Source: a virus
DNA length: 24,651 nucleotides
Direction: 5' to 3' (one strand)
Virus record (IMG/VR): IMGVR_UViG_3300029266_001176
Location: 1-24,651 of that record
Each line of letters begins with the position of its first letter. Position 1 is the stretch's first letter. Position numbers and translations under genes: made by a program. Positions 2-23,936 of the stretch are shown here, one piece after another. The notes under the pieces were generated by a model. That model searched no databases. It was not told where the DNA came from and saw nothing but the letters and a program-made list of their open reading frames with translations.

Positions 2-760
2 AATCATGCTCCAGTTATTACTGAAGCAGTTAATATGGTTGAAAGCAGAGGAGATTGTTTCTTTATAGCCGATCCAGTTGAATATGGATCAGCATTAACA
101 ACAGTTACTGCAAAGGCAGATGCTAGAGATTCAAATTATGTTGCTGAATATTGGCCTTGGATTAAAATTCCAGATGTAGATTTAGGAATGAATGTTTGGG
201 TTCCGCCTTCAACATTGATACCTAGTGTATATGCATTTAATGATAGAGTTGCCGCTCCATGGTTTGCGCCAGCTGGTTTAAATAGAGGTGCTTTAGATAT
301 TGCAGTAATGACAGAAAGAAAATTAACTCATGCAAATAGAGATACACTTTATGATTCAAATGTAAATCCGATTGCAACTTTTCCTAATGCAGGTGTAGTT
401 GTTTATGGACAAAAAACATTACAGAAAAAGGCAAGTGCATTAGATAGAATAAATGTGAGAAGATTGTTAATTGCAGCAAAGAAATTTATTGCATCATCAA
501 CCAAGTTTTTGGTATTTGAAAATAATACAGCAGTAACTAGAAATAGATTTTTAAGTATTGTTAATCCTTATTTTGAAAATATACAACAAAGACAAGGATT
601 ATTTGCATTTAAAGTTCAAATGGATGAAGCAAATAATACACCAGATGTCATTGACAGAAATGAAATGAAAGGTGCAATTTATTTGCAACCTGCTAAGACA
701 GCAGAATTCATAATTATTGATTTTAATATACTTCCAACAGGAGCTTCATTCCCAGAATAG
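2..760 (+). CDS. Contractile tail sheath protein, C-terminal part (gene starts before the window)
   Basis: This is the end of a gene whose reading frame is open back to base 2, so the ATG at 35 is internal and the true start lies outside the window. The visible ~252 residues resemble the C-terminal region of T4 gp18-type sheath proteins: an AWFAPAGLNRG-like segment (here APWFAPAGLNRGAL), then LDRINVRRLLIAAKKFI, then the NRFLSIVNPYFENIQQRQGL stretch and a final beta-rich domain ending in IIIDFNILPTG. Sheath subunits surround the tail tube and contract to drive it through the host envelope. The next gene encodes the tube protein, the usual order in myoviruses. Confidence is high because of the motifs and the neighbour. 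Confidence 0.93.
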   Translation, partial: NHAPVITEAVNMVESRGDCFFIADPVEYGSALTTVTAKADARDSNYVAEYWPWIKIPDVDLGMNVWVPPSTLIPSVYAFNDRVAAPWFAPAGLNRGALDIAVMTERKLTHANRDTLYDSNVNPIATFPNAGVVVYGQKTLQKKASALDRINVRRLLIAAKKFIASSTKFLVFENNTAVTRNRFLSIVNPYFENIQQRQGLFAFKVQMDEANNTPDVIDRNEMKGAIYLQPAKTAEFIIIDFNILPTGASFPE

Positions 761-797: not shown

Positions 798-1286
798 ATG
801 GCAGAATTACTTGACCCCACCGAGATATTTTATACAGCTTATGAGCCTAAAATGGCAAATAGGTTTATTATGTACATTGAAGGCATACCTGCATATCTTG
901 TGAAAGCTGCATCAAGACCATCATTAGATCAAGGAGAAGTTATTCTTGACCATATTAATGTTGAGCGAAAGTTAAAAGGCAAAACAAGATGGCAAGATGT
1001 AACCGTAACATTATATGACCCAGTAGTTCCATCAGGAGCACAAGCGGTAATGGAATGGGTTAGACTTCATCATGAATCAGTAACAGGAAGAGATGGATAT
1101 TCAGATTTCTATAAGAAGGATGTCACATTTAATACATTAGGACCTGTAGGTGATAAAGTTGAAGAATGGACTTTAAAAGGCGCTTTTATATCAGCAGCAA
1201 GCTTTGGTGATATGGATTGGTCAACAGAAGATCCAGTACAGATTGAATTGACAATTAAATACGATTACGCAATATTGCAATTTTAA
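798..1286 (+). CDS. Tail tube protein (T4 gp19-like)
   Basis: The 162-residue product has the size and pattern of T4 gp19-family tube proteins. It has an N-terminal segment leading into a MANRFIMYIEGIPAYLVKAAS strand (one residue abbreviated in family comparisons as NRF.M.I.GIP), a KGKTRWQDVTVTLYDP beta hairpin, a helix VMEWVRLHHES, and a C-terminal strand pair ending in VQIELTIKYDYAIL. Subunits stack as hexameric rings to form the rigid inner tube through which DNA passes. The start is supported by TTGGAGAAA about 8 nt upstream. The gene follows the sheath gene by 37 nt and is followed by a strong terminator, which fits a separately and highly expressed virion protein. Confidence 0.92.
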   Translation: MAELLDPTEIFYTAYEPKMANRFIMYIEGIPAYLVKAASRPSLDQGEVILDHINVERKLKGKTRWQDVTVTLYDPVVPSGAQAVMEWVRLHHESVTGRDGYSDFYKKDVTFNTLGPVGDKVEEWTLKGAFISAASFGDMDWSTEDPVQIELTIKYDYAILQF

Positions 1287-1379: not shown

Positions 1380-2228
1380 ATGACAAAAGTTAACGAAGAT
1401 TACCCAAAAAAACAACTATCTGACGAAAAGCTAAAACAATTAGCTACGGAACAATATGAAGAAACATCAGTTGAATCATATGACTTCCCGACAGAAATAA
1501 TAGATTTACCTAGTAAAGGAAAATTATATCCAAAAGATCATATTTTGAATTCCGGAACGATTGAAATGAAATATATGACTGCGAAAGAAGAAGATATTCT
1601 TACCAATCAATCATATATTAAACAAGGTATAGTATTAGATAAATTATTTAAAGCTCTTATAATGACTAAGGTCAATTATAATGATATATTAATATGCGAT
1701 AAAAATGCAATCATGATTGCAGCAAGAATATTAGGATATGGTAAAGATTATGAAGTTAAAGTCAAAGATCCGGAATCTGATGAAATGGTTTCTCATACTG
1801 TTGATTTAACAGATCTTAAAGATAAAGAAATTGATTGGTCTTTAATAGAGGATGGTATCAATGCATTTCCATTTATATTACCAACAAGTAAAAAACAAGT
1901 CAAACTAAAATTGTTATCACAGAGTGAACAAACAAAAATTGATGCAGAACTTAAAGGTTTAATAAAAATCAAAAAAGAAGCTGGATTAACTACATTGTTG
2001 AAACATGTTATTGTAGAGTTGGATGGAGATACTGATAAATCAAAAATAAGAAAATTTGTTGATACAAACTTATTAGCCATAGATTCTAGAGCAATGAGAA
2101 TATTTCTAAAAACAATTACTCCAGAAATAGATATGTCTATTGAAGTCCCGGTTGGAGAGTCCGGAGATACATTTCCGAGTCAACTTAGCATCGGATTGGA
2201 CTTTTTTTGGCCTGACTCAGAGCTATAA
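1380..2228 (+). CDS. Baseplate/tail assembly protein, T4 gp26-like
   Basis: The 282-residue product carries a DLPSKGKLYP motif near residues 41-50 and MTAKEEDIL about 20 residues later. This is the signature I associate with the T4 base plate protein family that includes gp26. The C-terminal end reads LSIGLDFFWPDSEL. In T4, gp26 belongs to the set needed for the baseplate hub. Here the gene lies between tube and tape measure, the position occupied in many long-tailed phages by tail-assembly chaperones. The start has AAGGAAAG close upstream. Its last 89 bases overlap a second open frame (see 2140-2439), and the crossover region contains a run of seven T at codons 275-277. The family call is moderate; the exact role (hub component or chaperone) is open. 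Confidence 0.65.
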   Translation: MTKVNEDYPKKQLSDEKLKQLATEQYEETSVESYDFPTEIIDLPSKGKLYPKDHILNSGTIEMKYMTAKEEDILTNQSYIKQGIVLDKLFKALIMTKVNYNDILICDKNAIMIAARILGYGKDYEVKVKDPESDEMVSHTVDLTDLKDKEIDWSLIEDGINAFPFILPTSKKQVKLKLLSQSEQTKIDAELKGLIKIKKEAGLTTLLKHVIVELDGDTDKSKIRKFVDTNLLAIDSRAMRIFLKTITPEIDMSIEVPVGESGDTFPSQLSIGLDFFWPDSEL

Positions 2229-2439
2229 AAAACTATTTCAAGAATCTATATTTGACTTGATATATCATAGTAATGGGGGATTCTCATATACGGATGTATA
2301 TCATATGCCAGTATATTTACGTACCTTCTATATAAGGAAGTTAAGCAAAATGCATTCCGACCAAAACGAAAATCATGAGAAGGCTATGAAATCCCAGCAA
2401 TCAACAATGGCAAAATCACCTAAAATGCGCAAACGTTGA
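2140..2439 (+). CDS. Small overlapping tail-assembly ORF; possibly expressed by frameshift from the gp26-like gene
   Basis: This frame is +1 relative to the gp26-like gene and is open from 2131. A stand-alone start would have to be TTG at 2140 or 2152, neither with a visible Shine-Dalgarno sequence. The protein-like part begins near SYKKLFQESIFDLIYHSNGG and continues SYTDVYHMPVYLRTFYIRKL, then a polar Lys/Gln-rich tail. The pattern recalls small tail-assembly proteins of T4-like phages (a protein annotated gp51 in some cyanophages), but I am not certain of that link. A shift at the T7 run (2202-2208) would instead join this domain to the gp26-like protein, as in the G/GT tail chaperones of other phages. 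That the region is translated seems likely; how it starts is unresolved. Confidence 0.6.
   Translation: MKSRLESPEIHFRVNLASDWTFFGLTQSYKKLFQESIFDLIYHSNGGFSYTDVYHMPVYLRTFYIRKLSKMHSDQNENHEKAMKSQQSTMAKSPKMRKR
2202..2208 (+). promoter_or_regulatory. Candidate slippery site (T7) for ribosomal frameshift
   Basis: Seven consecutive T occupy two Phe codons and the first base of the Trp codon of the gp26-like frame, just before that frame stops at 2226-2228. Either a +1 or a -2 shift here would continue into the overlapping frame ending at 2439. Frameshifting in tail genes between tube and tape measure is established for many phages, but no shift is proven here. Confidence 0.4.
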
Positions 2440-2447
2440 TATTTATA
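2439..2447 (+). promoter_or_regulatory. ATATTTATA element before 94-residue tail gene
   Basis: The core lies 15 nt before the chosen ATG at 2463 and is followed by AAAAAAGGAAT, which supplies the ribosome binding site. It overlaps the stop of the preceding ORF by one base. Confidence 0.45.
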
Positions 2448-2462
2448 AAAAAGGAATATATC

Positions 2463-2747
2463 ATGTCCAAACATAAAATTGAAAATAAAATGCTAAAACA
2501 AATCGATCAACTCGATGAAGGCGTATTATTAGGTCTTTTAAAATTAATAATGAAGCCGGCTGTAAAAAGAGCTTTTACTAAGATAGAAAAAGATATGCCG
2601 GAAATAGTCACTACAATCTCCGGATTACGATTCTATGCTGACGAATTAAAAGATGAAATAAAAAAATTAGAAAAAGAAGCTAAAAGTAAAGATGAATTTA
2701 CTGCAGGCTTTGCTAAAGACCAGTTAAAGTTATTAAAACTACAATAA
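2463..2747 (+). CDS. Small helical protein of unknown function upstream of the tape measure gene
   Basis: I chose the ATG at 2463 rather than the in-frame ATG at 2436, because AAAAAGGAA lies just upstream of 2463 and the 2436 start would overlap the preceding stop and the ATATTTATA element. The product has 94 residues and is predominantly helical and charged, with a Lys/Glu-rich coiled-coil-like segment (ADELKDEIKKLEKEAKSK) in its second half. No family is recognised. Its place directly before the tape measure gene suggests a tail-assembly role, possibly a chaperone of the tape measure protein, but this is only positional. Confidence 0.75.
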   Translation: MSKHKIENKMLKQIDQLDEGVLLGLLKLIMKPAVKRAFTKIEKDMPEIVTTISGLRFYADELKDEIKKLEKEAKSKDEFTAGFAKDQLKLLKLQ

Positions 2748-2755
2748 AGGTATAA

Positions 2756-5008
2756 ATGAGTAAGTCAGGCCCAAGCAAAGACGATGTTAAAAATACCAAA
2801 GAGATGAACAATCTGTTTGAGTCGATGCAGAATATAACAGGCGACATTACTAGAAATTTAGAATCTATAAAAGAAGAAGAGGCTGCTATATTATCTACAC
2901 AAAATAGAGGAGTAAAACTTGCTCAGTTAACTAGACAGTTACAAAAAGAAAAAGAAAAGCTTTCGAAAAATGAAAATAATCTTAGTAAGGAGCAAATAAA
3001 ACTTAAAGCAAAAGATTTATTATTAGCCGACCGACGATTGAAAAGTGCTAAGCAGATGCAAGCCGGTAATATAAAAATTAGAAATCAACTAGTTGGAGTA
3101 AATGATCAAGCACAAAAATTATCTGGACATATAGAGAATTTTGTATCTGCATTACCAGGAGGCAAGTCACTAATAAAAATGTTTGGGATTGACCAGATAG
3201 GTGTAAAGTTTGAAGAATCATTAAATAAAGGGGCAGAAGTTTTAAAATCAGGTGGTAGTATAAAGGAAGCAATGACCGCTTTCGGTGGTGGCTTAAAAGG
3301 AATGTTAGGGCCTGCAGGAATATTACTAGTAATAATAGGAGGCTTGGTTGCAGCATTTAGCATAATTTCTAAAAAGGCACAAGAATTTTCCAAAGAAACA
3401 GGAATAACATTTGGCCAGGCAAGAAAATTAGGTAAAGAAGCATCTGACATGACAATATCGTTAGACGATAATTTGTCAAGTACAAAAGATATAAAAGATG
3501 TATTATCAGCAAGTATAAAAGAATTTGGAGTATTAAATATGTTGTCTGCAGAACAGGCAATGAATGTTTCTGAAATAGGCCAGGCATTTGGATATGGCGC
3601 AGCGCAAGCTGGAAAAGTTAACAATGTATTTATGCAAATGGGGGCATCTGCAGAAAGTGCAGCCGACGCACAAAGGGATTTAGCAGCAGAAGCTTTAAAG
3701 TCTGGACTAAATGTAGGCGCAGTAACAAAAGATATTGCGGATAATGCAAAACTTACATCAAAATTCTTTGGAGGTAATGTTAAAGCTCTTAAAAAGGCAG
3801 CATTGCAAGCAGCTAAACTAGGCATGAGTATTGCAACCATGGCAAAAGTTTCAGAGAGCTTACTTAATTTTGAAGATTCCATATCATCACAATATGAATT
3901 CCAAGCATTAACAGGAAAACAATTAAATCTAGATACAGCTAGACAATTAGCGTTACAAGGAGATATAGCAGGCGCGACCAAATTAATAATGGATCAGGTA
4001 GGTTCATCTGCAGATCTTGCAGCAATGAATGTCATTGAACGTAAAGCGTTAGCTAAAGCAACCGGAATGGAGTTTGATCAACTTCAAAAATCTGCAATTA
4101 TTAAAGAAAAAATGAAAGATTTAACTGCAGAAGATGCAGCAGCAATGGCAAATCTAGGTCTTTCGGCAGCTGAAATGGCCGGAATGAGTAGTGAACAATT
4201 GCAAAACAAATTAGCAGAACAACAGGCCAATAAAAGAAATAGTCAATCATTTGCTGCAATGGGCAATATATTGATAAATGCTATTATGCCAGCAGCACAA
4301 GCAATTTCTGAATTGTTTGGAGCATTAGCACCTATCATAAAAATGGCATTCTTTCCTTTAACAGCAGCGGCAATGGCATTTGCTAGCATTTCAAACTTTA
4401 TTAAAGATTCTGTAATAGCAACTACAGCTTTCGGTGTAGCACTTGGTGCTATACTTTTAATGAAACAAACTAGTTTGGGAATTAGTCGAGCTGAAGCAAT
4501 AGTAATTGGGTTAAGGAATGCAAAAGAAAAAATTGGATTAGGTATAGTTGCAATGAGAACGAGTATGGAGAAAAAGGGATTTTTCAAAACATTGGCATCT
4601 GCAGCACTAACAGCTTTTAAATCAGTTGCTGCGACTCCTTTCATAGGTCCTATATTAGGAGCAGCAGCTGCTGCGTCAGTAGTAGGATTGGGAGCTAGTT
4701 TAATTAGTAAGACGGGAGATTTAGGTATAGATCCTAATGGCGGCCCTATAGTATCATCACCTAGAGTCGGAGGAATATTTCAAGGAGCAAAAGCAGATGG
4801 AGTATCAATGGGGCCAGGTATGGGTACCGATCCATCAACAGGTAGTACAAATGGAGGAGGATCTGTTAGTATAGATTATCAAAGAATGGCACAGGCCATA
4901 GTAAAAGCAATGGCAGGCGTAACAGTACAATCAGCTCCAATACAAATTGGTGCTCAAGTAATAAATGCTATTAGTGATCAAATCGATGTAAATAAGTCTT
5001 ATAACTAA
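2756..5008 (+). CDS. Tail tape measure protein
   Basis: The 750-residue product is long, Ala/Gly/Lys-rich and largely helical. It begins with a coiled-coil N-terminal region (about residues 10-110) and has hydrophobic, membrane-like segments near residues 182-205, 500-545, 555-572 and 623-652. This combination is typical of tape measure proteins, which fill the tail tube, set its length and may help DNA cross the inner membrane. With the usual rule of about 0.15 nm per residue, the tail would be about 110 nm long. AAAGG lies just before the ATG. The stop overlaps the next start (TAATG, 1 nt). There is no obvious peptidase motif. Sequence identity to a specific family was not judged; the call rests on length, composition and position. 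Confidence 0.85.
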   Translation: MSKSGPSKDDVKNTKEMNNLFESMQNITGDITRNLESIKEEEAAILSTQNRGVKLAQLTRQLQKEKEKLSKNENNLSKEQIKLKAKDLLLADRRLKSAKQMQAGNIKIRNQLVGVNDQAQKLSGHIENFVSALPGGKSLIKMFGIDQIGVKFEESLNKGAEVLKSGGSIKEAMTAFGGGLKGMLGPAGILLVIIGGLVAAFSIISKKAQEFSKETGITFGQARKLGKEASDMTISLDDNLSSTKDIKDVLSASIKEFGVLNMLSAEQAMNVSEIGQAFGYGAAQAGKVNNVFMQMGASAESAADAQRDLAAEALKSGLNVGAVTKDIADNAKLTSKFFGGNVKALKKAALQAAKLGMSIATMAKVSESLLNFEDSISSQYEFQALTGKQLNLDTARQLALQGDIAGATKLIMDQVGSSADLAAMNVIERKALAKATGMEFDQLQKSAIIKEKMKDLTAEDAAAMANLGLSAAEMAGMSSEQLQNKLAEQQANKRNSQSFAAMGNILINAIMPAAQAISELFGALAPIIKMAFFPLTAAAMAFASISNFIKDSVIATTAFGVALGAILLMKQTSLGISRAEAIVIGLRNAKEKIGLGIVAMRTSMEKKGFFKTLASAALTAFKSVAATPFIGPILGAAAAASVVGLGASLISKTGDLGIDPNGGPIVSSPRVGGIFQGAKADGVSMGPGMGTDPSTGSTNGGGSVSIDYQRMAQAIVKAMAGVTVQSAPIQIGAQVINAISDQIDVNKSYN

Positions 5009-13594: not shown

Positions 13595-13873
13595 ATGAAC
13601 TTACAAGAAAACTACAAAAGATTATTTAAAGGTAGAATCAGATCCAATGATTCAAAATTAATATCCGAGGCTATGGTTAAAGTAGATAGTGGCGAGGTTA
13701 ATGGAATGGATAGAACAGCATCTGGTACTTATGGTAGTAAAAAATGGAAACTGGAAACAGATGATGGATTTACTAGTATTTTTGTAAATGGCAAATCTAT
13801 TGACGATGATGATCCTATGTACGATAATATATTAACGACTGTCAATGACGAAGGCTACGAATTAGAAGATTAA
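13595..13873 (+). CDS. Small acidic protein of unknown function
   Basis: The 92-residue protein has a strong ribosome binding site (AAAAGGAAAAA). The C-terminal half is rich in Asp/Glu (SIDDDDPMYDNI, DEGYELED), giving an acidic protein; the N-terminal part is basic and polar. No domain is recognised. It lies between the replication-associated genes and the duplicated leader of the SSB gene. Confidence 0.65.
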   Translation: MNLQENYKRLFKGRIRSNDSKLISEAMVKVDSGEVNGMDRTASGTYGSKKWKLETDDGFTSIFVNGKSIDDDDPMYDNILTTVNDEGYELED

Positions 13874-13884
13874 AACTTTTTTTA

Positions 13885-13921
13885 ACTTTTTTTGATAATC
13901 TTAGGATAATAGAAAAAAAGT
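13885..13921. repeat. Inverted repeat, copy 1 (ACTTTTTTT ... AAAAAAAGT)
   Basis: ACTTTTTTT (13885-13893) is the exact reverse complement of AAAAAAAGT (13913-13921). A small inner pairing ATC/GAT surrounds a TTAG loop. There is no T run after the hairpin on either strand, so it does not look like a terminator. It overlaps the spacer of the promoter-like box, so operator or RNA-structure roles are possible. Confidence 0.7.
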
Positions 13922-13930
13922 ACTTATATT
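13901..13930 (+). promoter_or_regulatory. Candidate early/middle promoter, copy 1 (distal) of SSB gene
   Basis: TTAGG-N6-GAAAAAAAG-N2-CTTATATT, identical in layout to the box before the polymerase gene. TAGGAT and TATATT are separated by 17 nt. Confidence 0.6.
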
Positions 13931-13971
13931 AATAAATAATAATTAACCAATACCAAATAAAACTTTTTTTA

Positions 13972-14009
13972 ACTTTTTTTGATAATCCTTAGGATAATAG
14001 AAAAAAAGT
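13972..14009. repeat. Inverted repeat, copy 2
   Basis: ACTTTTTTT (13972-13980) pairs with AAAAAAAGT (14001-14009). The extra C turns the inner arm into ATCC-TTA-GGAT, so the inner stem is one pair longer than in copy 1. The hairpin is kept in both copies. Confidence 0.7.
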
Positions 14010-14018
14010 ACTTATATT
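13989..14018 (+). promoter_or_regulatory. Candidate early/middle promoter, copy 2 (proximal) of SSB gene
   Basis: This is the second copy of the 30-base box with the same spacing. It is followed after about 40 nt by AAAAGGAAAAC and the ATG at 14059. Two tandem promoters would give high SSB expression. Confidence 0.6.
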
Positions 14019-14058
14019 AATACTAATAAATAATAATTAATCATTTAAAAGGAAAACA

Positions 14059-14826
14059 ATGGCAATTGATTTAGACGCAATTAAAAGAAAACTTAGTCAG
14101 CTTCAGACTACCGGCACCAGACAAAACAACTTATGGAAACCGGAACCAGGTAAGCAAACAATCAGAATAGTCCCTTATCAGCACGACAGAGACAATCCAT
14201 TCAGAGAATTATATTTTCATTACGATTTAGGTAAAAAGAATTATCTATCTCCAGTGACTAACGGCAAAGCAGATCCAGTAGTGGAATTTGCAGAGAAGTT
14301 AAAAGCATCTGGTAATTCGGATGAATGGAAATTAGGTAAGAAGATGGAACCTAAAATGAGAACATATGTTCCTGTGCTAGTAAGAGGAAAAGAATCTGAA
14401 GGTGTTAAATTTTGGGGATTTGGAAAAACAGTTTATACCGAGTTATTAGGTGTAATTGCAGATCCAGATTATGGAGATATATCTGATCCTATGAATGGAA
14501 GAGATGTATTAGTAGAATTTACTCCGTCAGAAGGAGCAGGTTCATTCCCAAAAACGACAATTAGAGTTAAGCCTAATGTTACTCCAGTAACAGAGGATAA
14601 AAATGTTGCAGAAATGGTTACAAAGAATCAACCAGATCTATCAGCAATATTTAAAGAACCGACCTATGATGAACTTAAAGAAGCATTAGAGAGTTGGCTC
14701 AATCCAGAAGAATCAGGAACAGAAGAAGCTCCTAAAGCAGAAGCAAGTTCTAACGCAGGAGAATCTACTAAAGTAAATAAAGTAGATGACGTTTCTTCAG
14801 CATTCGATTCATTATTCAACGAGTAA
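14059..14826 (+). CDS. Single-stranded DNA-binding protein, T4 gp32-like
   Basis: The 255-residue protein has the layout of gp32: a basic N-terminal arm (LDAIKRKLSQL, with a KRKLS cluster like the cooperativity motif), a core with YFHYDLGKKNYLSPV and DPVVEFAEKL, aromatic strands (VKFWGFGKTVY), and a long acidic C-terminal tail ending DDVSSAFDSLFNE. It coats single strands during replication and recombination and recruits partners through the tail. Unlike T4 gp32, it contains no cysteine, so the zinc site is absent. The start has AAAAGGAAAAC upstream. The preceding duplicated AU-rich leader may serve transcription or self-regulation. It lies 13 nt before uvsX, matching the functional partnership. 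Confidence 0.9.
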   Translation: MAIDLDAIKRKLSQLQTTGTRQNNLWKPEPGKQTIRIVPYQHDRDNPFRELYFHYDLGKKNYLSPVTNGKADPVVEFAEKLKASGNSDEWKLGKKMEPKMRTYVPVLVRGKESEGVKFWGFGKTVYTELLGVIADPDYGDISDPMNGRDVLVEFTPSEGAGSFPKTTIRVKPNVTPVTEDKNVAEMVTKNQPDLSAIFKEPTYDELKEALESWLNPEESGTEEAPKAEASSNAGESTKVNKVDDVSSAFDSLFNE

Positions 14827-18523: not shown

Positions 18524-20380
18524 ATGGATATATCAAATAGAATTTTATCTGACATTACAGTGCATATGAAGTATGCAAAATATGTACCGGAATTGAATAG
18601 GAGAGAGACTTGGGATGAGTTAGTTACGAGAAATAAGAATATGCATATAAAAAAGTTTCCAACACTTAAGTCGGAAATAGAAGATGTATATAAAATGGTA
18701 TATAATAAAAAGATATTGCCATCAATGCGGTCATTACAATTTGGCGGCAAGCCAATTGAAATATCTCCGAATAGAGTTTACAATTGTGCATATCTTCCTA
18801 TAGATGATTGGAGAGCTTTTGGAGAAGTAATGTTTTTACTATTAGGAGGAACAGGCGTAGGATATTCAGTACAAAATCATCATATAGATAAATTACCGGA
18901 AATTAAAAAGCCAAATATAAATAGGACTAGAAGATTCTTAATAGCTGATAGTATTGAAGGATGGGCAGATGCAGTTAAAGCATTAATGAAAAATTATTTT
19001 CAAGGTGGATCTAAATTAAAATTTGATTTCTCAGATATAAGACCTAAAGGTGCTCAACTAGTTACATCAGGTGGTAAAGCTCCAGGACCCCAGCCATTAA
19101 AAGAATGCTTAATTAAAATAGCAGGAGTTTTAGATTTAAAGAAAGATGATGAAAAATTATCTCCATTAGAAGTACATGATATAGTTTGTCATGTAGCAGA
19201 TGCCGTTCTAGCAGGTGGTATAAGACGTGCAGCATTAATTAGTTTATTCTCTGCAGATGATAATGAGATGATTAGTTGTAAATCAGGTAACTGGTGGGAA
19301 CTTAATCCACAAAGAGGTAGATCTAATAACTCTGCAGTACTTATGAGGCATAAAATTACTAAAGAGTTCTTCATGGAACTATGGAAAAGGGTTGAATTAT
19401 CTAATGCAGGAGAGCCTGGTATATACCTGTCTAATGATAAGGATTGGGGAACTAATCCATGTTGTGAAATAGCATTAAGACCTTTTCAATTTTGTAACTT
19501 ATGTGAAGTAAATGCTAGTGATATTAAGTCTCAAGAAGATTATGAAGCAAGAGTAGTGGCAGCAACATTTATAGGTACATTACAAGCATCATATACCGAT
19601 TTTCATTATTTAAGACCTATATGGCAAAGAACAACAGAGAAAGATGCTTTAATTGGAATATCAATGACCGGTATAGGATCTGGCACAGTATTAAATTATG
19701 ATATGAAAGCAGCAGCAAAAATTGTTAAAGTAGAAAATGAACGTGTTGCTAAATTATTAAATATAAATAAGTCGGCTAGATGTACAACAGTTAAGCCTGC
19801 AGGAACAACATCTCTTACATTAGGAACTTCATCTGGAATTCATGCATGGCATAATGATTATTATATACGTAGAATTAGAGTTGGCAAAAATGAATCCATA
19901 TATACATATTTAAAAAATAATCATCCAGAACTAATTGAGGATGAATATTTTAGGCCTCATGACACTGCTGTAATTAGTATACCGCAAAAAGCACCTGAAG
20001 GTTCTATAATGAGAACCGAATCACCATTTCAATTATTAGAACGTGTAAAAAAGGTTGCTCAAGAATGGATTAAACCTGGACATAGATCTGGTAATAATAC
20101 TCATAATGTTTCAGCAACAATTTCATTGAGAGATCATGAATGGAAGCCGGCTGGAGAATGGATGTGGGATAATAAAGATCATTATAATGGACTTTCAGTA
20201 TTAAATTATAACGGGGGTACATATGAACAAGCTCCATTTGAAGATTGTACAGAAGAGACATATAACACATTAATGAAAACATTAACTGAAGTTGATATTT
20301 CTAATATTATTGAGTTAGATGATCAGACAGATTTATCCGGCGAAGTAGCATGTGCAGCAGGTGCATGTGAGATAGTGTAG
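18524..20380 (+). CDS. nrdJ: Adenosylcobalamin-dependent (class II) ribonucleotide reductase, monomeric RTPR type
   Basis: The 618-residue protein has the residues of Lactobacillus-type RTPR in order: redox Cys88 in YNCAY, Asn311-Pro-Cys313-Cys-Glu315 (radical-site Cys and Glu), redox Cys324 in FCNLCEVN, the KPAGTTSLTLGTSSG phosphate-binding loop (425-439) and a C-terminal CAAGAC pair (C610, C615) for reduction by thioredoxin/glutaredoxin. It converts ribonucleoside triphosphates to deoxy forms and needs B12, supplied by the host or taken up. It is shorter than the ~740 residues of the bacterial enzyme. Phages often carry it to feed replication. It is followed, with a 1-base overlap, by the DUF5522-like gene. 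Confidence 0.93.
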   Translation: MDISNRILSDITVHMKYAKYVPELNRRETWDELVTRNKNMHIKKFPTLKSEIEDVYKMVYNKKILPSMRSLQFGGKPIEISPNRVYNCAYLPIDDWRAFGEVMFLLLGGTGVGYSVQNHHIDKLPEIKKPNINRTRRFLIADSIEGWADAVKALMKNYFQGGSKLKFDFSDIRPKGAQLVTSGGKAPGPQPLKECLIKIAGVLDLKKDDEKLSPLEVHDIVCHVADAVLAGGIRRAALISLFSADDNEMISCKSGNWWELNPQRGRSNNSAVLMRHKITKEFFMELWKRVELSNAGEPGIYLSNDKDWGTNPCCEIALRPFQFCNLCEVNASDIKSQEDYEARVVAATFIGTLQASYTDFHYLRPIWQRTTEKDALIGISMTGIGSGTVLNYDMKAAAKIVKVENERVAKLLNINKSARCTTVKPAGTTSLTLGTSSGIHAWHNDYYIRRIRVGKNESIYTYLKNNHPELIEDEYFRPHDTAVISIPQKAPEGSIMRTESPFQLLERVKKVAQEWIKPGHRSGNNTHNVSATISLRDHEWKPAGEWMWDNKDHYNGLSVLNYNGGTYEQAPFEDCTEETYNTLMKTLTEVDISNIIELDDQTDLSGEVACAAGACEIV

Positions 20381-20576: not shown

Positions 20577-20585
20577 ATATTTATG
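20577..20585 (+). promoter_or_regulatory. ATATTTATG element before T9SS cargo gene
   Basis: TATATATTTATG lies 15 nt before the ATG at 20601. It overlaps the upstream in-frame ATG at 20583, which argues against that codon as the start. The shared element suggests phage control of this gene. Confidence 0.45.
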
Positions 20586-20600
20586 ATAAATGGAGATTGG

Positions 20601-23600
20601 ATGAAACGTTTTATATTAAGTCTATTCTGTTTAATTACACTTACAAGTAACGCACAGAATATAATATTTGGTTGTACAGATACAGCAGCAGCAAATTATG
20701 ATTCAACAGCTACACAGCAACTAGAAGGAAATGTTGAATTTCCCGTTGGTTGTAATCAAACCGGCTGGTTCGGAAATTATGTAGGTATAAATTTAGCATT
20801 ATATCAGAACAATCCATTAGCATTTGCAGTAGGTACAAAAGTAACAATAGCAGGCTATGATTATTGGATTGATGCTATGAATGTGCCAACTAACTGTAAT
20901 GCTGGCGTTGCCTTAATTTATATAGCATATACCCCGGGGTTAGCAGACGGAAATTGGATGACACAGGGTGGAGTTGTTCAAGGTATAGGCCCCAGACCGG
21001 GAGACCAATGGAATATTACAGAATGTTTTTATAATCCAGGATGTATGGATCCAGATTATATAGAATATGATTCAAGTGCCAATTGGGATGATGGTAGTTG
21101 TCAGACATTAATATTAAAAGGTTGTACAGATTCAACATCATTAAATTATAACCCATGGGCTAATACAGATGATAGTTCTTGCATACCAGATTTAAGTTGT
21201 GGTTTCCATAAGGTTGAAATATCCGTAACTTTAAAGTTAGATAATTGGCCAAGTGAAACTAGTTGGTTACTATTACACACAACAGGAAACGTCACAGATA
21301 CAGCTTATTATGCACCTAGAGGAACATATAATTATCAACAACAAGGACAAACTATAGTAACTAATTTTTGTGCTAACGCAGGGCCAAATCATTATTTACA
21401 ATTCGTATTACAAGATTCATATGGTGATGGTATAAGAGGTTATCCAATACCCACTAATAGTGGATATTGTTTAGTTGAAAATAAGTCTTGCCCTGATACC
21501 TTATTTTATATGTCTGAAGCAAATGCTGACTTTGGATCCGTAATCACTAGTGATGGAAATTATTGGAGTCAAAGATCATCTTATTGTGGTCCTACTCCTA
21601 TTTTTGGTTGTATGGATCCTGCCTATCAAGAATATGATTCATTAGCTACCGTAGACGATACTTCGTGTGTCAATCTTCACATTTATGGTTGTATGGATAC
21701 TAATTCTGTTAATTATAACTCAAATCATACAACACCAGATAATATAGAAAATTGTCAATATAGAGTTATAATAGAAGATGATGGCGGAGATGGATGGGGA
21801 GAAAGCTTTATAGGCATTAAACAAGGATTTCAATTATGGGATTTTAGGTTAGGTCTCGGAACGTATGTAGATACTTTTTATATAGATCTTATAGTTAAAG
21901 ATAATCCTGGATTACAAGAACTAGTTGAAATGTATTATTTTGAAATAGGAGATGACCAACAATCTACTCAACAAATAGATATTCAAACAATACAAAATTC
22001 AGTTAAAATAGAAAATGATTATGGAATTTTAATACAAGAAGGAAATTTTCCATGGGCTAATGGAAATAAATTAAAAACATATAAAACAACAGCCGATATA
22101 TATTCCGGAATACCATTCTGTGGATATGTATGTACTCCTAAAGTATATGGTTGTATGGATCCAACTTCATTAAATTATAATCCTAATGCAAATACTGATG
22201 ACGGAAATTGTATTCCTATAATTTATGGATGTATGAATCCTTTAGCATTTAATTATGATTCGACTGCTACCATTAGCGATAATAATTGTATAGCTATAGT
22301 ATATGGATGTACAGATCCTATATCATTTAATTATGACTCTAATGCAAATGTAGATAATGGAACTTGTATTTATTTAGGATGTACAGATAATATAGCTTGT
22401 AATTATGATTCAACAGCAAATGTTGATAATGGTGGATGTATGTATCCTGCTCAATATTATGATTGTAATTATATTTGTTTGGAAGATATAGACGGAGATG
22501 GTATCTGCGATTCACTAGAAATATTAGGATGTACAAATCCACTTTCAATTAATTATAACTCTAATGCAACTGATAATGATGGCTCATGTATACCATATGT
22601 ATATGGCTGCATGGATCCTACATCATTTAATTATGATTCATTAGTTAACACAGACGATGGATCATGTATACCGGTAATATTAGGATGTACAAATCCTACT
22701 TCTTTAAATTACAATCCTAATGCCAATACAAATAATGGTTCATGTATAACACCAGTATATGGTTGTACAGATCCAACCTCATTTAATTATAATGTTTTAG
22801 CAAATGTAGATAACGGATCTTGTATTCCTGTAGTGTACGGTTGCACAGATTCTACAATGTTTAATTATAATGTTTTAGCCAATACTAATAACGGAACATG
22901 TATATCATATGTATATGGATGTACAGATTCAAATGCTTTAAATTATAATCCATTAGCAAATACAGATGATAATTCATGTATTACAAAAGTTTATGGATGT
23001 ACAGATCCTACATCATATAATTACGACTCAAATGCAAATACAGATGATGGTAGTTGTATACCTGTGATATTAGGATGTATAGATCCTACCATGTTTAATT
23101 ATAATATAAATGCAAATACAAATGACGGTTCATGTATACCTTATGTATACGGTTGCACAGATCCAAGCTCATTTAATTATGATTCGACAGCAAATACTGA
23201 TAATGGCTCATGTGCGCCAATTGTATTTGGTTGTACTGATTCAACTGCATTTAATTATGATCCTTTATCTAATACCAATAATGGTTCTTGTATACCTATA
23301 GTTTATGGTTGTACAGACCCAAATGCATTTAATTATAATCCAAGTGCAAATACAGAAGATTTTAGTTGTATTCCTGTAGTTTATGGTTGTACAGATTCTA
23401 CTTCTGTAAATTATGATTCAACTGCAAATGTGGATAATGGTTCTTGTATAACTGCAGTCCCAGGTTGTACAGATCCAAATGCATTTAATTATAATCCAAA
23501 TGCAAATGTTCCTGATTCAGCATCGTGTTTATATGATGCCGGATGTATTACAGGTCCAGGTAATCCATATTGGTTAAATGATCAATGTTATGCCTGGGTA

Positions 23601-23936
23601 ATTAGTATAGATCCATATTGTTGTTCTGTAGGATGGGATGCTAATTGTCAAAGTACATATGATTACTGTGATCAAAATAGTACCTGGACCGGCATAGAAG
23701 ATTTAATTTATGATGGAGGAATAGCAATATATCCTAATCCAACTAAAGATAAATTAAATATAGTAAGTTCTAGATTCGAAAATGTATTAGTTACATTATA
23801 TAGTATATCAGGACAAGTTGTTATAAATGAAACTAATGATAAAGTTATTGATTTAAACAATTTGCAAGATGGTGTTTATTTTATGCATATATCTGTTGCA
23901 GAATTAACATATATTAGAAAGGTAATTAAACAATGA
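20601..23936 (+). CDS. Phage-encoded secreted repeat protein with T9SS C-terminal sorting domain
   Basis: I chose ATG 20601 because TGGAG lies 5 nt upstream and a clear signal peptide follows (MKRFILSLFCLITLTSNAQ); the in-frame ATG 20583 lies inside the promoter-like element. The product is 1111 residues. It has about 22 copies of a Cys-containing unit of about 26 residues (pattern GCTDPTSFNYDSNANTDDGSC). Three are N-terminal, two are central and about 17 are in a C-terminal array. Between them are two larger beta-rich insertions with DSYGDGIRGY and DDGGDGWGES motifs, a DIDGDGICD calcium-type loop, and a Cys-rich DPYCCSVGWDANCQ module. The last ~70 residues (IYPNPTKDKLNI, LYSISGQVV, LQDGVYFMHI, RKVIKQ) are a type IX sorting domain. 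It should cross the inner membrane by Sec and be displayed or released by the host T9SS. The role is unknown. Confidence 0.88.
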   Translation: MKRFILSLFCLITLTSNAQNIIFGCTDTAAANYDSTATQQLEGNVEFPVGCNQTGWFGNYVGINLALYQNNPLAFAVGTKVTIAGYDYWIDAMNVPTNCNAGVALIYIAYTPGLADGNWMTQGGVVQGIGPRPGDQWNITECFYNPGCMDPDYIEYDSSANWDDGSCQTLILKGCTDSTSLNYNPWANTDDSSCIPDLSCGFHKVEISVTLKLDNWPSETSWLLLHTTGNVTDTAYYAPRGTYNYQQQGQTIVTNFCANAGPNHYLQFVLQDSYGDGIRGYPIPTNSGYCLVENKSCPDTLFYMSEANADFGSVITSDGNYWSQRSSYCGPTPIFGCMDPAYQEYDSLATVDDTSCVNLHIYGCMDTNSVNYNSNHTTPDNIENCQYRVIIEDDGGDGWGESFIGIKQGFQLWDFRLGLGTYVDTFYIDLIVKDNPGLQELVEMYYFEIGDDQQSTQQIDIQTIQNSVKIENDYGILIQEGNFPWANGNKLKTYKTTADIYSGIPFCGYVCTPKVYGCMDPTSLNYNPNANTDDGNCIPIIYGCMNPLAFNYDSTATISDNNCIAIVYGCTDPISFNYDSNANVDNGTCIYLGCTDNIACNYDSTANVDNGGCMYPAQYYDCNYICLEDIDGDGICDSLEILGCTNPLSINYNSNATDNDGSCIPYVYGCMDPTSFNYDSLVNTDDGSCIPVILGCTNPTSLNYNPNANTNNGSCITPVYGCTDPTSFNYNVLANVDNGSCIPVVYGCTDSTMFNYNVLANTNNGTCISYVYGCTDSNALNYNPLANTDDNSCITKVYGCTDPTSYNYDSNANTDDGSCIPVILGCIDPTMFNYNINANTNDGSCIPYVYGCTDPSSFNYDSTANTDNGSCAPIVFGCTDSTAFNYDPLSNTNNGSCIPIVYGCTDPNAFNYNPSANTEDFSCIPVVYGCTDSTSVNYDSTANVDNGSCITAVPGCTDPNAFNYNPNANVPDSASCLYDAGCITGPGNPYWLNDQCYAWVISIDPYCCSVGWDANCQSTYDYCDQNSTWTGIEDLIYDGGIAIYPNPTKDKLNIVSSRFENVLVTLYSISGQVVINETNDKVIDLNNLQDGVYFMHISVAELTYIRKVIKQ
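22149..23532 (+). repeat. In-frame array of ~78-bp coding repeats (26-residue Cys units)
   Basis: About 17 near-tandem units begin with GGT/GGA-TGT (Gly-Cys) and encode GC(T/M)(D/N)P...NY(D/N)..AN(T/V)(D/N)(D/N)GSC followed by 3-5 spacer residues such as IPVVY. Unit length is mostly 26 codons. A DGDGICD segment interrupts the array near 22440-22530. Copies differ at many synonymous sites, so they are not a very recent expansion. It is not CRISPR: the units are coding and have no unique spacers. Confidence 0.9.

Follow-up and report, generated by a model that had tools for sequence, protein, structure and literature searches.

How is a second open reading frame (ORF) translated when it overlaps the 3' end of a phage tail gene, out of frame and without an evident start of its own? 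This question is raised by a 24.6-kb virus record (IMG/VR IMGVR_UViG_3300029266_001176, 24,651 nucleotides), which is analysed here at its full length and is called the window. A gp26-like ORF (1380-2228) overlaps, out of frame, a second ORF that ends at 2439; the overlap lies at CTTTTTTTGGCCTGAC, where a run of seven T (T7) is read in the phase GAC TTT TTT TGG CCT GAC ... TAA. We conclude that the locus is very probably the tail-assembly chaperone (TAC) pair of a T4-like myovirus, expressed through programmed +1 ribosomal frameshifting. The elements involved are as follows; the counts refer to 61 non-redundant relatives described below.

1380..2228, plus strand: gp26-like protein, short form (TAC-N), 282 aa, zero frame; PF12322 E 8e-5, phrog_150 E 2e-8.
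2201..2201, plus strand: base directly 5' of the run, C here, a wobble position that avoids U; T in 3/61 genes versus 35.4 +/- 3.4 expected from the codon usage of each gene.
2202..2208, plus strand: T7 run; the slip is predicted at the second Phe codon, UUU 2205-2207, which would re-pair +1 to UUU 2206-2208; YTT_T in 61/61, wobble positions fixed.
2208..2216, plus strand: zero-frame UGG CCU GAC, with the +1 reading GGC CUG ACN from 2209; the A-site codon begins with U in all relatives (TGG 56, TTC 3, TAC 1, TAT 1), and the next two bases are CC in 61/61.
2209..2439, plus strand: +1-frame C-terminal domain (TAC-C), 76 residues followed by TGA 2437-2439; kept in 61 relatives.
2226..2228, plus strand: zero-frame stop TAA, seven codons past the start of the slip codon; in every relative listed, a stop lies 4-7 codons after the slip codon.

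Under the proposed mechanism, most ribosomes would read the gp26-like frame to the stop at 2228 and produce TAC-N. A presumed minority, possibly pausing at UGG, would hold tRNA-Phe on the second UUU in the P site with UGG in the A site, slip +1 to UUU 2206-2208 and go on with GGC CUG ACU, to produce TAC-NC (352 aa). If the two products act as in lambda, the tape measure protein would be coated by TAC-N, and the tail tube subunit would be recruited by the C-terminal domain of TAC-NC. It should be noted that a first-pass annotation of this DNA had already pointed to the overlap. Its description of the second frame as +1 to the gp26-like frame and open until TGA 2437-2439 is correct, as is the end of the gp26-like frame after the run; the distance is, however, 17 bases instead of the 18 given, and the fused product, recomputed with a +1 shift at the run, has 352 residues instead of about 345.

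Conservation of the proposed slip site

Runs of seven T are common in this AT-rich contig (18 observed in the window versus 26 expected from shuffles), so the evidence lies in the conservation and phase of this run in more than 100 relatives. We gathered tblastn-confirmed loci from IMG/VR, INPHARED and one metagenome-assembled genome, using a motif that permits the site variants listed here, and reduced 108 loci to the 61 relatives by greedy clustering at 80% identity. One of six peptide patterns used in the first scan (DFFWPDSE) spans the site, and it imposes no bias on the choice of Phe codon. The more distant LR756508, SP-15, LIS04 and GXN1 were read by eye. The arrangement is kept in the 61 relatives, among them phages Mel-JY01 and immuto. 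The comparison with related phages that the first-pass annotation had proposed is favourable to it: homopolymer and frame relation are conserved, and so is the missing start.

YTT followed by T stands at the same place in all 61 relatives, the invariant core being YUU_U, with TTT as the slip codon in 58 and CTT in three. The wobble bases of the two run codons are T in 97% and 100% of the genes, compared to a major-base frequency of mostly 30-43% at upstream wobble positions. The probability of TTT at 58 of 58 Phe slip codons is about 1e-8, calculated from per-gene codon usage and assuming independent genes. The rarity of T directly 5' of the run looks as if U were avoided there, against the -1 site U_UUU_UUU. 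The frame under selection also changes at the run: the major base at the third position of zero-frame codons has a frequency of 0.40 before the run and 0.76 after it, and substitutions in the +1 frame of the C domain are biased toward third positions. We also performed a DNA-only scan with a 19-nt form of the site and no protein criterion; it matched at least 120 stretches, and among the matches listed, 80 loci were kept, with the N frame in 80/80 and the C domain in the +1 frame in 78/80, whereas the remaining two end at a contig edge.

Alternative routes to the second frame

The second ORF could be translated independently, from TTG at 2140 or 2152 or from another start within the gp26-like gene. 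These two TTG codons are indeed present and, as noted earlier for this sequence, no ATG precedes the run in the second frame; Mel-JY01 has been annotated with such an internal start, and in two relatives (L110 and L115), an ATG past the gp26 stop serves as the start. However, 40 of the 61 relatives have no ATG in the stretch from the last +1-frame stop to the slip, and 25 have neither ATG, GTG nor TTG; in 18 of these 25, the last +1-frame stop lies only 6 or 12 nt upstream of the slip. The conserved residues FGLT..YR start exactly at the run, and start-codon positions upstream of it are not common across relatives. We consider independent initiation very unlikely. A CUG start at the C domain was ruled out, with relatives carrying CTA, CTC or CAC there. 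If ribosomes do change frame at the run, the first-pass annotation left the choice between a +1 and a -2 slip. Re-pairing at -2 is possible on U7 runs and is used by phage Mu (PMC5009743), but the site reads TTC TTT TGG in L100-L109 and L111-L114 and GAC GCT TTT TGG in L012/L013. These variants hold the same frame relation yet keep only the second-codon TTT plus one U; thus, -2 re-pairing is excluded in them, while a +1 shift from UUU to UUU fits, and only YUU_U is common to all relatives. The CTT_T members were not used in this argument because wobble pairing leaves both directions possible for them. LR756508 has TTT_CTA, i.e., UUU to UUC in +1. Accordingly, only the +1 half of the earlier suggestion stands: we predict a +1 shift on the second Phe codon and regard -2 slippage as very unlikely.

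Homopolymer runs in bacteria can also provoke slippage of RNA polymerase, which would yield mRNAs of altered length; six of the 61 relatives, however, keep the arrangement although their T runs, 3-5 in length, are too short for slippage of this kind. It would not work in the TTC TTT TGG and GAC GCT TTT TGG variants either, and this explanation appears highly improbable. Homopolymers are error-prone in sequencing as well, but we give almost no credence to a sequencing error or a decayed gene, given the identical phase of the run in more than 100 contigs and in sequenced isolates and the third-position bias of the +1-frame substitutions.

Several observations weigh against programmed +1 frameshifting or lend it no support. 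We found no conserved downstream RNA structure (z values near in-ORF controls; four RNAalifold pairs without covariation) and no Rfam match, and only a weak Shine-Dalgarno (SD)-like signal precedes the slip (mean z -0.7; 8% of genes at rank <0.05). For the AlphaFold model of the N domain, PDB gave the HK97 tail assembly chaperone 2ob9 as top match, at a non-significant E of 1.2; this likeness is suggestive only. In L110 (2223-2543) and L115, the C domain forms an ORF apart, starting at an ATG of its own shortly past the gp26 stop, so that the fusion does not appear to be strictly required in them. These two are nested inside the frameshifting clade in the N-domain tree, within the CTT_T subgroup; the +1 slip site is gone in L110, whereas L115 retains CTT_T and reads the C domain in another frame. 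A second ORF with its own start, which the first-pass annotation had named as evidence against frameshifting, was found only in this side branch and in the distant huge phage L096 (LR756511). The +1 slip site is gone in L096 as well, and a C-like ORF lies there in the -1 frame at 3657-3929, with an ATG overlapping the gp26 stop (TAATG); it could be reached by coupled initiation or by -1 slippage.

Domain families and genomic context

The earlier label "gp26-like" is supported by the phrog_150 (baseplate hub) match and by PF12322 (T4_baseplate), the latter just under its cut-off (22.9 bits against 24.5). The N domains of the relatives SP-15 (1.5e-28) and LR756508 (4e-15) also match this PF12322/phrog_150 family, and the gp26-like protein was aligned with 63 relatives. 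Single-sequence hhalign comparisons of T4 gp26 and gp51 with our N and C profiles were not significant; models of the families and a C alignment built from several phages took their place. With this alignment, the C domain gave a borderline match to the C parts of gp51 and cyanophages (E 5e-5, probability 68%, 35 columns), the C domain of L121 a borderline match to phrog_634 (E 0.0098), and the motif YS..D/EI..M.P.ER is common to the C domain and the gp51 C part. DUF6760 (PF20546) also matches the C domain in 16 of 62 members (best E 3.5e-5); the domain of the window itself is below the curated cut-off (17.7 bits versus 27). The two domains were folded separately. The N model (predicted local distance difference test, pLDDT, 91) matches the SP-15 baseplate hub subunit (E 3e-17) and T4-like hub assembly proteins (E 1e-14 to 1e-10) in BFVD. 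The C model is predicted to have three helices (pLDDT 85), and no match to it was found in PDB by fold or by sequence.

The gene order is sheath, tube, gp26-like ORF, second frame, a 94-residue protein and the probable tape measure:

35..760, plus strand: tail sheath, C-terminal part (upstream neighbour); PF17482 E 7e-13, phrog_23 E 4e-55.
798..1286, plus strand: gp19-like tail tube (upstream neighbour); phrog_4542 E 7e-27.
2463-2747: 94-residue protein.
2756..5008, plus strand: probable tape measure protein, 750 aa, proposed from position and composition; the immuto counterpart is annotated as tape measure.

Family profile searches gave no match for the 750-aa ORF. The location between tube and tape measure, as in G/GT-type chaperones, was correctly recognized before, and it is shared by Mel-JY01, immuto and SP-15.

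Elsewhere in the window, positions 20583-23936 (plus strand) encode a 1117-residue Cys-rich repeat protein with a C-terminal type 9 secretion system (T9SS) type A sorting domain (TIGR04183, E 3e-13), which points to a Bacteroidota host and to export of this phage protein through the host type 9 system. An 87-bp intergenic repeat at 13871-14033 (1.9 copies, 94% matches) has T7/A7 runs and a CTTAGG core, and lies just before the ORF at 14059. The ORF at 18524-20380 is a ribonucleotide reductase resembling the adenosylcobalamin-dependent triphosphate type (TIGR02505, 299.5 bits versus the cut-off of 340).

Comparison with known chaperone and frameshift systems

A relationship between the T4 gp26-like family and tail-assembly chaperones, proposed in the first-pass annotation, is right but already published. 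Vladimirov, Gautam and Davidson in 2022 (Virology 566:9-15) reportedly assigned T4 26/51 as chaperones, with frameshifts in other T4-like groups. The title of this article appears in PMC10885494 and PMC13222765, and PMC12846349 cites it for poly-T -1 signals. The chaperone role in T4-like phages is thus known, and the +1 direction is the new part; we found no description of the +1 clade, its site rule or its guarded 5' base in the literature examined. The direction had been called uncommon, which holds within T4-like phages, where published or observed signals are -1; a +1 chaperone was earlier inferred for HSTV-2 by Atkins et al. 2016 (PMC5009743), who describe -1, -2 and +1 shifts in different phages.

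The T4-like TAC-N/TAC-NC systems have the same N family (PF12322/phrog_150), a gp51-related C domain, a short and a long product, and a poly-T frameshift signal at a Phe-Phe hinge close to the 3' end. However, their signals are -1, whereas the clade of the window has the extra U 3' of the Phe codons and a predicted +1 shift; its C_TTT_TTT_TGG, with the C domain in +1, differs from the T4-like -1 heptamer X_XXY_YYZ. P-SSM2, S-PM2, HTVC008M, Cr30 and phiM12 have their C part in the -1 frame, with the overlap at this hinge and the sequence U_UUU_UUC (P-SSM2, S-PM2), U_UUU_UUU (Cr30, HTVC008M) or a U7 run read -1 (phiM12). The predicted shift is thus -1 in Kyanoviridae, Cr30 and phiM12, and +1 in the clade of the window. 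T4 itself has two separate genes: PF12322 covers the whole length of gp26, which ends in GLKEFFELL, and residues 1-201 of gp51, with an extra C part matching phrog_634 at 147-246. The T4 pair is divergent; in Enterobacter phage PF-CE2 (L128, 1501-2794), the gp51-like and gp26-like genes share a strand and overlap head to tail.

In the N-domain tree (midpoint root, polarity not shown), the -1 and separate-gene phages fall on one side and the +1 phages (phages of Bacteroidota, a Microcystis phage, huge phages and SP-15-like phages) on the other. As read from the sequences, two deep branches shift in opposite directions, with a later loss of frameshifting in a single twig. In bacteria and phages, programmed +1 frameshifts at a sense codon are far less common than -1 shifts. 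We somewhat favour the reading that one family switched direction once, between a -1 branch in which the extra U precedes the two Phe codons and a +1 branch in which it follows them, that the U enabling -1 is selected against, and that a split form survives in extracellular contractile injection systems (eCIS) as DUF6760. If the switch was single, one nucleotide register would decide direction. The site is compact (YUU_U plus an A-site codon starting with U), and its natural variants in more than 100 relatives reveal which bases matter; together with a sister clade that shifts in the opposite direction at this hinge and a sub-branch that has replaced shifting by an ATG, this makes the question of direction directly testable. 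It also allows re-annotation of a protein usually left as "baseplate hub" and "hypothetical" in these phages.

In eCIS of Streptomyces and Haloferax plasmids, the gene directly after the tube gene, or the next one, codes for an N-like protein, and DUF6760 comes after it, the two sharing 4 nt; in our loci, this N-like hypothetical protein and DUF6760, near the tube gene, occupy 2432-3012 (L146) and 2474-3270 (L147). The eCIS and phage profiles match in hhalign for both C (E 2.7e-4, probability 42%) and N (E 1.2e-4, probability 55%), and an eCIS DUF6760 protein has a weak match to Phage_P2_GpE (E 0.021). One eCIS probe was an improvised family-like bait, of which only the database matches were used; a genome search around L121 found no DUF6760. 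The N-like and C-like domains are in the same order and place as in the phages, but as two genes, with a C domain that has its own start and needs no frameshift. As a lead, this pair is likely a split chaperone; eCIS may encode the chaperone halves as separate genes, suggesting that DUF6760 of contractile injection systems is one such half.

Lambda gpG/gpGT and P2 E/E+E' share the position between tube and tape measure and a short protein with a rare frameshifted extension, but they shift -1, and no sequence similarity of the N domain to them was found. HSTV-2 G-T, of a Halorubrum virus, is the same in its very likely +1 shift in the chaperone of a contractile-tailed virus (PMC5009743), although it is archaeal and is likened here by description. 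A parallel to the site is prfB, encoding release factor 2 (RF2), where CUU_UGA likewise re-pairs YUU_U in the P site +1 onto UUU, and L062, L074 and immuto have exactly the CUU_U of prfB; in the window, however, the A site would hold the sense codon UGG, not a stop, with no clear SD three bases upstream.
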